DNA from: Candidatus Macondimonas diazotrophica | GTDB taxonomy: Bacteria; Pseudomonadota; Gammaproteobacteria; UBA5335 | DNA length: 64,000 nucleotides | Assembly (NCBI RefSeq): GCF_004684205.1 | Contig: NZ_SRIO01000010.1 | Location: forward strand, 1-64,000 | Direction of reading: 5' to 3' | Shown: positions 18,981 to 59,319 of the stretch, one piece after another | Layout: each line of letters opens with the position of its first letter | Position numbering within the stretch: the stretch's first letter is position 1 | Translations under genes and position numbers: made by a program | The notes under the pieces: model-generated | What the model was told of the DNA's origin: nothing | Seen by the model: the letters and a program-made list of their open reading frames with translations, nothing else | Databases searched by the model: none

Positions 18981-19128
18981 CGCAGCCGTCATCGGGGAGT
19001 AGCCGCTCTTCCACCGGAAGAGGCTTGCGTCAACACACTTGGCCCCATCGGCCATGGCGCAGGCAGTCCCGCACCTGGCAAGACCGTTGACCACAGCGCC
19101 GCCGCAGGCCGGGGTAGCGCTGTGGTCA
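18981..19128 (+). promoter_or_regulatory. yybP-ykoY manganese riboswitch with expression platform
   Basis: The leader contains the hallmark GGGGAGTAGCC at about 18994-19004. It is followed by a hairpin (CTCTTCC with GGAAGAG, 19006-19022), then CAACACACTTGGCC and CTGGCAAGACC, as in proteobacterial yybP-ykoY aptamers. Directly after is a perfect 12-bp stem (19088-19099 with 19117-19128) that ends about 21 bases before the start codon and could act as the switching element. This RNA class binds Mn2+ and commonly precedes Mn exporters. The downstream gene belongs to a family known to be under this riboswitch. Confidence 0.8.
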
Positions 19129-19149
19129 TCGATGTCGTTCCGGCCGGGG

Positions 19150-19722
19150 ATGTTCATGGAAGCGTTCTTCGTCTCCACCAGTCTGGTCGCGCTGGCCGAA
19201 ATCGGCGACAAGACTCAGCTCCTCGCCTTTATCCTCGCGGCGCGCTTCCGGCGTCCCGTGCCCATCATGCTGGGCATCCTTACGGCCACCCTGTTCAATC
19301 ACGGCCTCGCCGGCAGCCTGGGCGCCTGGATCGCAAGTGCGGTCGATCCGGCCATCCTGCGCACGGGGCTGGGATTGTCGTTTCTGGCCATGGCCGTCTG
19401 GATGCTCATCCCCGACCAGCTTGATTCCGACACGATGCGGCTTTCGCGCCGCCTGGGTGTCTTCGGCACCACCCTGCTCGCCTTTTTCTTCGCTGAGATG
19501 GGCGACAAAACCCAGATCGCGACGGTGGCGATGGCGTCGCATTACGCCGCGCTCGGTCCGGTGGTCGGCGGCTCGACGCTCGGCATGATGATCGCGAACG
19601 TCCCGGCCGTCCTGATCGGAGAGCGGCTGGCGCAACATCTGCCCACCCGGCGCATCCACCAGCTCGCCGCTGCGCTGTTCGCGCTGCTGGGCGGCATGGT
19701 GCTGTTGGGTCTGGGCGGATGA
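19150..19722 (+). CDS. TMEM165/GDT1 (UPF0016) family transporter, probable Mn2+ exporter
   Basis: This 190-residue inner-membrane protein has two homologous halves, each with the family signature: [14 protein letters not shown] near residue 14 and [14 protein letters not shown] near 118. About six helices are predicted. GDT1-family proteins move Mn2+ and/or Ca2+, and the Vibrio homologue MneA exports manganese. The manganese-riboswitch-type leader immediately upstream supports the Mn role. ATG 19150 and ATG 19156 are both possible, and GGGGA sits closer to 19156. The upstream frame overlaps the riboswitch and is rejected. Confidence 0.9.
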
Positions 19723-55626: not shown

Positions 55627-55655
55627 TTGACCGCTCGTTCAAGATACCCTAGTGT
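55627..55655 (+). promoter_or_regulatory. Candidate promoter of the solitary pmoC, with a short inverted repeat
   Basis: TTGACC at 55627-55632 is followed after 17 bases by TAGTGT. CTTGA and TCAAG (55626-55643) form an inverted repeat over the spacer and could be a regulator site. The -10 match is poor. The 157-base leader region is AT-rich compared with its surroundings. Confidence 0.35.
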
Positions 55656-55726
55656 TTGTCGATACATGACATAGATCATGGTTTTTTAGCTTTTTAATGG
55701 CGGTTCTAAGTAACGAGGAGATAGAC

Positions 55727-56512
55727 ATGAGTGCGGTTATGCCATCCAGTAGGGCCGTTGCTGCCCCAGCTGAAGCGGCCCCCTCCATTCGGGGGCCATG
55801 GATGTTTGCCCTGGGCGTCGGTATTCTCGCCGGCCTTGTGTTCGGCGTTTATCGCTGGTACCAGCAAAATTACTCCTTTACGGTCGGAATGGACTATTTC
55901 GAACCGGAATTCCAGACCTATTGGATGAGTCTGTTCTATGTCCAGATGACAGTCATCCCGCTGATCGGCGCCATTGCCGTAGCCGTTCTGTGGTTCACCC
56001 GCGACCGCAACATCATGGCAATCACCCCGCAGGAAGAGCTGAAACGCTATTACTATGTCCTGACGCTGTTGGCCATGGCCAGCATTCTGGCCGCGGTCAT
56101 CTTCGGCCTGTTCGTTGAAGCTGATGCGGCGTGGCACCAGACGACCATCCGCGACACCGACTTCACCCCCACGCACATCGCGCTGTTCTATTTCGCCATT
56201 CCCGCAGCACTAGTGGGGCTCACCTTCGCCTGGGTGTGGGTCCATACGCGACTCCCACAGTTCACCCAGCGGGTTTCCATTCCGTTGTCCCTGGTCGTCG
56301 CCGGACCAATCCTCATCATGCCCAATCTCGGTCTGAACGAGTGGGGCCACACGTTCTTCTATGCCGAAGAACTTTTCGCGGCGCCGATCCATTGGGGCTT
56401 TGTAGTGTTGGCCTGGGGCATCTACGCACTCGGCGGTTTCGCAGTCCAGTGTGTGGCCCGTATCGCGGAATTGACCCGGCTTACTCAAGCGCAAGGGTCA
56501 CAGACCACCTGA
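55727..56512 (+). CDS. pmoC: Copper membrane monooxygenase subunit C (PmoC/AmoC), solitary
   Basis: This 261-residue protein has about six membrane helices. Clear family blocks are GMDYFEPEFQTYWMSLFYVQM, EADAAWHQTTIRDTDFTPTHIALFY, TRLPQF and MPNLGLNEWGHTFFYAEELFAAPIHWGFV. Both copper sites known in particulate methane monooxygenase subunit C are conserved by spacing: Asp133, His137, His150 (CuC type) and Asn204, His208, His222 (CuD type). ATG 55727 has GAGGAG six bases upstream. No subunit A or B gene is adjacent: a pseudouridine synthase lies upstream, a PagL-like gene downstream, and a strong terminator directly follows. It may replace or supplement the C subunit of a CuMMO operon elsewhere; substrate (methane, ammonia or short alkane) is unknown. 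Confidence 0.93.
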   Translation: MSAVMPSSRAVAAPAEAAPSIRGPWMFALGVGILAGLVFGVYRWYQQNYSFTVGMDYFEPEFQTYWMSLFYVQMTVIPLIGAIAVAVLWFTRDRNIMAITPQEELKRYYYVLTLLAMASILAAVIFGLFVEADAAWHQTTIRDTDFTPTHIALFYFAIPAALVGLTFAWVWVHTRLPQFTQRVSIPLSLVVAGPILIMPNLGLNEWGHTFFYAEELFAAPIHWGFVVLAWGIYALGGFAVQCVARIAELTRLTQAQGSQTT

Positions 56513-56539: not shown

Positions 56540-56570
56540 AAAAAGCCGCCGGTAACCCCGGCGGCTTTTT
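56540..56570 (+). terminator. Strong intrinsic terminator after pmoC
   Basis: A 13-bp stem (56540-56552 with 56558-56570) has a five-base loop and ends in TTTTT. It makes the pmoC transcript monocistronic. Confidence 0.92.
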
Positions 56571-57549: not shown

Positions 57550-59319
57550 TCATTCAGCCCGAATCCAGTTGAACAGTTCGACGGCATTGACCATATCGGC
57601 TTCCGTGGCAATACCGATGACCTTGCCGTTTTCTTCCACCAGCAGGCGGCGGATTCGATGCTTGATCATGCGATCGATGCATGCACTGATCGGCTCGGTC
57701 ATCGGAACCGTGATGACCGGCGTGGTGGCCATTTCGCCCACTGTCACTTCAGCCGAATTGCGTCCAGCCTGCGCAACGCGCCCCATCACATCGCGCCGCG
57801 TCAGGATCCCCCAACCGAGCCCATCATGCGGCTCCACGATAACCGAGCTCACGCCGTGATCGCGCATGACCCGAACGGCATCATCGATCGTGGCATCATG
57901 CGCAATCGTCACCAGCTTGCGCGTCATGATATGGCCAATGGCAGTCGGCTTCCGACCGGATTCCAGCATGGCCTCCATGGGTGCGGTGATCCGCCGGCTT
58001 TCACGCAGCTGGCGGTTTTCCAGACGCCATTGTCGCCGTGCTTCAGCGCGTGCCTGCACATCGATACCGGCATGAATACGACTGATGATTTCATCGGCAA
58101 AGGCGCTGGTCGCCACTTCGCGGGCGCCTTCCATCTGGCGCGCAAAGTCGTAAGTGACGACTTTATCCTGGACGACGTCCTGGAAGGCTTCGCGGATGAC
58201 GTCGCCGGCTTCGGTCCAGCCGATATAGTCCAGCATGTCGACACCACTGAACAGCAGCGAGCCCGGGTTGACCTTGTCCTGGTTGGCGTATTTCGGCGCG
58301 GTCCCGTGCGTGGCCTCGAACACCGCCACGCCATCACCGATGTTGGCACCGGGCGCAATGCCGACCCCACCGACCTGGGCCGCGATGGCATCGGACAGGT
58401 AGTCGCCGTTGAGATTCATCGTGGCGAGCACATCGAATTCCTGTGGGCGCAGCAGCATCAGCTGGAAGATGATGTCGGCGATGCGATCCTTGATGACGAT
58501 CTTGCCTTCGGGGACCTTGCCGCCATGCTCCTCGAACACCTCGGTCTCGGTGATGGTGCGGTCGCCGAACTCCTCGCGGGCAACCTGATAACCCCAGCCA
58601 CGAAATGCACCTTCGGTGTACTTCATGATGTTGCCCTTGTGGACCAGCGTCACACTCTCGCGGCCATGATCGATGGCATACTGAATCGCCTGACGTACCA
58701 GTCGCTTGGTGCCAAAGGGGCTGATGGGTTTGATGCCGAGCCCGGCGTCCTCGAAAAACTCTGCCCCCATTTCCTGACGCAGGAACTGGGCGAGCTTCTT
58801 GTTATCCGGCGTTCCAGAGGCATATTCGATACCGGCGTAGACGTCCTCGGTGTTTTCGCGAAAGATCACCACATCGATCAGCTGGGGTTCGCGCACGGGC
58901 GAAGGCACGCCGCTGTAGTAGCGCACCGGCCGCACACAGGCATACAGATCGAGATCCTGGCGCAACGAGACGTTCAGTGACCGGAACCCGCCGCCGACCG
59001 GGGTGGTCAGCGGACCTTTGATCGAAACGCCAAGCTCGCGCAAGGCCGTCAGCGTTTCCTCGGGGTAATAGTTGCCGTCGTAAAGAGAAGCAGCCTTTTC
59101 GCCAAGAAACAGCTCGCACCAGTGGATCTTGCGGCGTCCGCCGTAAACGACCTCCACTGCAGCATCCCAGATCCGCAGACAGGCCCGCGTGATATCCGGG
59201 CCGATGCCATCGCCTTCGATATAGCCGAGAATGGGTTGATCGGACACTTTAGGCCGGCCATTGGCGTCGAATTGAACCTTGTCTCCCTGTGCGGGCATTC
59301 GAATGTGACGATACGTCAT
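57550..59319 (-). CDS. icd: NADP-dependent isocitrate dehydrogenase fused to a C-terminal CBS pair
   Basis: This 589-residue protein has residues 1 to about 425 as a standard bacterial NADP-type [13 protein letters not shown], the phosphorylatable-type Ser and substrate Arg residues in [29 protein letters not shown], and [17 protein letters not shown] whose Lys-Tyr pair marks NADP specificity. A 35-residue linker follows. Residues 460-580 form two CBS motifs ([34 protein letters not shown], and [33 protein letters not shown]). Normal ICD is about 415-420 residues. CBS pairs bind adenylates, so allosteric control by energy state is likely. The reading frame is continuous. Confidence 0.93.

Follow-up and report, generated by a model that had tools for sequence, protein, structure and literature searches.

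A solitary copper monooxygenase subunit C gene with an operator-like palindrome common to alkane-oxidation genes in Candidatus Macondimonas diazotrophica

The genome of Candidatus Macondimonas diazotrophica, an uncultured gammaproteobacterium that probably degrades hydrocarbons, contains a gene for subunit C of a copper monooxygenase (CuMMO) that stands apart from any A or B gene. On balance we favor the view that this focal gene encodes an alternative, stand-alone and exchangeable C subunit of an alkane-oxidizing CuMMO that is controlled together with alkB. The focal C is strongly conserved and is preceded by a putative control site common to genes of alkane degradation, suggesting that it is probably an interchangeable part of the enzyme. 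The sequence, fold, conservation of metal ligands, gene counts, orthology, selection and common palindrome were obtained directly, and from these we infer the partner and substrate of the subunit, the function of the operator and the type of regulator. The gene lies within the window, the whole 64,000-nucleotide stretch of DNA that was analyzed (contig NZ_SRIO01000010.1), and the features discussed are collected in Table 1.

The focal subunit and its locus

The focal open reading frame was read in the window from its ATG to its stop codon. The encoded protein scores 245 bits against the Pfam profile PF04896, for which the cut-off is 26.7, identifying it as a CuMMO subunit C. A sequence search matched it to PmoC and AmoC chains of the PDB with E values of about 1e-54 to 1e-59, and its AF2 model (pLDDT 81) was aligned by Foldseek to chain C of pMMO and AMO structures (7s4h, 9cl2, 9leg and 9cl6) with TM values of 0.75–0.85 and prob 1.00. 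This agrees with an earlier note, made from the DNA alone, which had described a complete PmoC/AmoC-type protein. Scores of the focal C against NF041641 and TIGR03078 are under the equivalog cut-offs, which would be expected of a branch that lies apart from characterized AMO and pMMO. All six of the ligands that the note had assigned to the CuC (D133, H137 and H150) and CuD (N204, H208 and H222) sites are present, and these are invariant in an alignment of 58 solitary C proteins, the exception being two sequences that end before the second site. The metal sites of the focal C and the segments that flank them are invariant, as they are in operon-encoded C subunits. The N-terminus had also been described as unlike that of standard PmoC and AmoC, but this is a weak claim, as residues 1–20 form a tail that is variable throughout the family and modeled with low confidence. 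The protein probably assembles as a complex with A and B, both of which the genome encodes.

The gene is encoded alone, as the note had stated, among unrelated genes for an RluB/E-type pseudouridine synthase, a PagL-like protein and an isocitrate dehydrogenase, and the strong terminator that had been reported for it was found again. Within the genus the genes upstream of the focal C are kept (pseudouridine synthase, PurT and mtn genes) while those downstream are not, which fits a transcription unit of one gene. The orthologs start at the same position, all with MS(A/S)V and with a similar Shine-Dalgarno sequence ahead. We rejected an assembly artefact because three relatives have this gene too, with its upstream neighbors unchanged, and a pseudogene on the basis of dN/dS and the intact ligands. 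A phage origin was rejected as the surrounding genes are ordinary bacterial ones and 50,697 phage records gave no match, and a plasmid origin as every plasmid match was under 60% identity. Two other features of the window are the isocitrate dehydrogenase (57550-59319), which bears two C-terminal CBS domains, and a Mn2+ riboswitch (yybP-ykoY, 89.8 bits, 18982-19151) ahead of a gene for a small membrane protein (19150-19722).

Each of the six genomes of the host family has exactly one ortholog of the focal C. The six rows form one clade in the tree (UFboot/SH-aLRT 96/97), and the branching order inside this clade fits the kinship of genus and family. Within the genus dN/dS is 0.05–0.06, values that are rough because dS is above 1; by this measure the constraint is similar to that on the A and B genes of an orphan AB pair described below and stronger than that on the operon C, and the focal C is less divergent than the latter. 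Over its full length the focal C aligns with about 50% identity to the operon C found in its genus, and no C protein from the remaining aligned groups exceeds about 59%. The suggestion that this is a special C subunit is supported by an ortholog group separate from the operon C, strong purifying selection and a regulated-looking promoter of its own.

Table 1. Coordinates of the features discussed, in the window unless a contig is named
Feature	Position	Strand	Description
Solitary CuMMO subunit C gene	55727..56512	+	261 aa; full CuC and CuD ligand sets
Shine-Dalgarno GAGGAG	55715..55720	+	kept in orthologs
Intrinsic terminator	56540..56570	+	13-bp stem followed by T tract
Palindromic operator-like site TTGACCGCTCGTTCAA (consensus TTGAACGNNCGTTCAA)	55627..55642	+	also at CAB, C-less AB and alkB promoters
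Putative sigma-70 promoter	55627..55655	+	TTGACC (55627-55632), 17 nt, TAGTGT (55650-55655); weak -10
PmoA-PmoB pair without subunit C	G000:C1:65026-67122 (L036:9020-11248)		315-kb contig

Subunit counts and an AB pair without C

Profile searches of the whole genome assembly (2.8 Mb, 96%-complete), which included the genome-wide search for A and B that the earlier note had called for, gave six C genes against two A and two B genes. Contig C8 has one complete C-A-B operon and one solitary C; the other solitary genes are on C6 (three) and C10 (the focal gene), making five in all. The focal C adjoins neither A nor B although the genome has AB, and no complete pmoCAB operon contains it. The other AB pair, on contig C1, is without a C subunit: the profile search found no C gene within 20 kb around it or elsewhere on the contig, and tblastn found no remnant of C at the pair. 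This C-less pair is present in four relatives, each time on a contig without any C, and the orphan B retains the N-terminal HGE and HxH copper motifs. Bacterial xmoAB genes have been described as “always clustered with an xmoC”, with singleton C genes only as extras (PMC6215863). The C1 pair and its counterparts in the four relatives lack an adjacent xmoC, and the C1 pair is an exception to this rule.

The orphan AB cluster also holds genes for an aldehyde dehydrogenase, a PQQ propeller protein and multicopper oxidases, and other C genes adjoin acyl-CoA ligases and acyl-CoA dehydrogenases. These metabolic neighbors fit a route from alkane through alcohol and acid to beta-oxidation. Close relatives have the same imbalance of C against A and B, while in the more distant UBA5859, NORP74 and NORP120 the related AB genes are inside CAB operons and many solitary C genes are present too. 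When 370 gammaproteobacterial genomes were drawn, only 12 proved to have any C gene. In UBA3067 and NORP332 genomes there are tandem arrays of two to three C genes that include neither A nor B (L081:7240-10741; L094:1531-3418).

The tree bears on which C might serve the orphan AB pair. In a 24-row clade (99/99) the operon C from the nearest relatives of the orphan pair is joined by the paralogs on C6 and C8, and the deeper position of the focal C is not clearly in that clade, so the partner of the orphan AB could be a paralog.

A palindrome common to CuMMO and alkB promoters

A palindrome was first seen on aligning the regions upstream of the focal orthologs and was then sought throughout the genome. 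Its consensus arms are TTGAACG and CGTTCAA, separated by any two bases, and the copy in the window is 84 bp upstream of the focal start codon. With at most one mismatch it is found in only three places in 2.8 Mb: at the CAB operon, where the copy is perfect, at an alkB gene and at the focal gene. Allowing up to two mismatches gives 13 sites, compared to seven for a reversed control pattern, and six of the 13 precede CuMMO or alkB genes (the CAB operon, the orphan AB, the focal C, a solitary C on C6 and two alkB genes). At this threshold the palindrome is carried by four of the seven CuMMO units, for which the chance probability is about 1e-9; the copy at the orphan AB, some 300 bp upstream, differs from the consensus by two mismatches, and at three of the five solitary C genes of the genome no clear copy was found. 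Among 3000 stretches of 400 bp taken at random from the window, the highest palindrome score was 10/14, the focal site excepted. The identity of AlkB is supported by a match to PDB 8f6t (E 1e-39). The promoters of the focal C and alkB have in common a site whose function is putative.

In the relatives the palindrome lies ahead of the focal orthologs, the orphan AB pairs and most CAB operons, and also ahead of alkB genes, an aldehyde dehydrogenase gene and an acyl-CoA ligase gene. At the CAB operon of KhS21 there is only a different copy with two mismatches (G005:C97:7086). A more distant genome with multiple C genes, G018, has seven palindrome sites compared to 12 of the control pattern and so no enrichment, and we therefore claim the regulon only for the host family.

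At the CAB promoters the left arm of the palindrome is the -35 box (TTGAAC, 17 nt, TATATA). At the focal gene the two boxes are equally far apart and the -10 is weaker, and the orthologs keep identical -35/-10 spacing; a generic consensus scan reported no sigma-70 promoter at the focal gene. A palindrome laid over a putative promoter is the geometry of a repressor operator, and judging from this geometry the regulator is probably of the TetR type. As the putative operator precedes the CAB operon, the C-less AB, alkB and the focal C, a TetR-like regulator probably switches all of these on together in the presence of alkanes. We rejected the possibility that the palindrome is the operator of a TetR gene, since none of the five TetR genes in the genome is near a good copy. 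One TetR-family gene (L200:1024-1668; G000:C5 about 14039) adjoins a 2Fe-2S ferredoxin reductase of the kind that transfers electrons to AlkB, and is a candidate for the regulator.

Roles considered for the focal subunit

In the scheme that we favor the focal C would have a transcript to itself, initiated at a promoter on which the palindromic operator is superimposed. Sensing of alkane would lift repression from the focal C at the same time as from alkB, the CAB operon and the C-less AB. The focal C would then enter the membrane and complete an A-B-C protomer with A and B produced from another locus, the C-less pair being the likeliest and the CAB operon a possible source, and the resulting monooxygenase would differ in its catalytic C subunit. 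It is conceivable, and we suggest it only tentatively, that the CuMMO is combinatorial, with a shared C-less AB core and a set of separately encoded C subunits. Each of these would give the enzyme its own alkane range or affinity, and the focal C along with a few more would be under the alkB regulator.

Stand-alone pmoC and amoC genes are already known from Methylocaldum, Nitrosomonas and phages, and the roles ascribed to them suggest other readings. A passage of PMC5960693, citing Berube and Stahl 2012, ties Nitrosomonas AmoC3, like the focal C a solitary C beside complete operons, to the stress response. By this precedent the focal C, which keeps the full ligand set and is mono-cistronic, could be a stress or starvation isoform that swaps into the same AB core and stabilizes the enzyme under stress with the substrate unchanged. 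This seems rather unlikely, as the focal control site is common to alkB and CuMMO operons and not to stress genes, and the focal C is under constraint similar to that on the orphan A and B; AmoC3 belongs to stress in an ammonia oxidizer, whereas the focal C is linked to alkane genes. The comparison that the earlier note drew with singletons of methanotrophs and ammonia oxidizers has precedents, but the context of those organisms does not carry over. A regulatory link that involves alkB, aldehyde dehydrogenase and acyl-CoA ligase genes speaks for alkane use and against a role in methane or ammonia starvation. The operator of the CAB operon, which the focal gene also has, would suit a gene that simply raises the dosage of C or stands in reserve for CAB, with no distinct role. 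We regard this as improbable given the distance from the operon C, the separate ortholog group in every genome of the family and the real need for a C that is created by the AB pair without one.

The solitary position of the gene could also be taken to mean that the focal C works without A and B, in copper handling, as a membrane protein or as an independent oxygenase. Functions unrelated to CH4 oxidation have been proposed for the stand-alone PmoC of Methylocaldum, of which there are four types (types 2–5) (PMC11931723). The resemblance is close in that several conserved solitary C genes occur per genome, the CuD residues are kept and the neighbors are unrelated. Methylocaldum is however a methanotroph for which a non-methane function is proposed, whereas the genome studied here has an AB pair without C, and its solitary C has an operator-like site as found at alkB and CuMMO operons. 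We consider independence from A and B very improbable, and the suggestion in the earlier note that the subunit might act in this way is unsupported, as two AB pairs exist and one of them needs a C; the metal sites and surrounding segments are as invariant as in operon-encoded C, and the operator is common to the focal C and AB.

Hydrocarbon CuMMOs (pHMO/HMO) are found in Gammaproteobacteria and Betaproteobacteria. Those of Solimonas, Panacagrimonas and Polaromonas fall in the same wider C and A clades of the tree as the host genes; at the loci examined C adjoins A and B, whereas the focal C is detached. Cycloclasticus has multiple pHMO operons, also in a hydrocarbon setting (PMC12510462). Phages encode pmoC (PMC7674155), like the focal gene as a C without A and B, but the focal C is flanked by ordinary bacterial genes. 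We found neither a C-less AB pair nor a solitary C within an alkB-type regulon described in the open-access literature.

Structural work on pMMO places catalysis near the copper sites of the C subunit. Much the same is said in PMC7674155 and PMC11931723. A lineage with one or two AB pairs, one of them C-less, and many C genes is a natural experiment in subunit swapping that may bear on the contribution of C to the choice of substrate. Surveys based on pmoA would under-count the diversity of CuMMOs in oil degraders, and the putative operator offers a specific point of regulatory contact between CuMMO- and AlkB-based oxidation of alkanes.

Solitary pmoC or amoC genes are also found on plasmids of Methylocystis rosea (L145:3941-4714) and Nitrosomonas sp. 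sh817 (L146:3869-4684), and a 5-kb, putatively viral IMG/VR contig (L204:1981-2655) codes for a distant C subunit that is 48%-identical.
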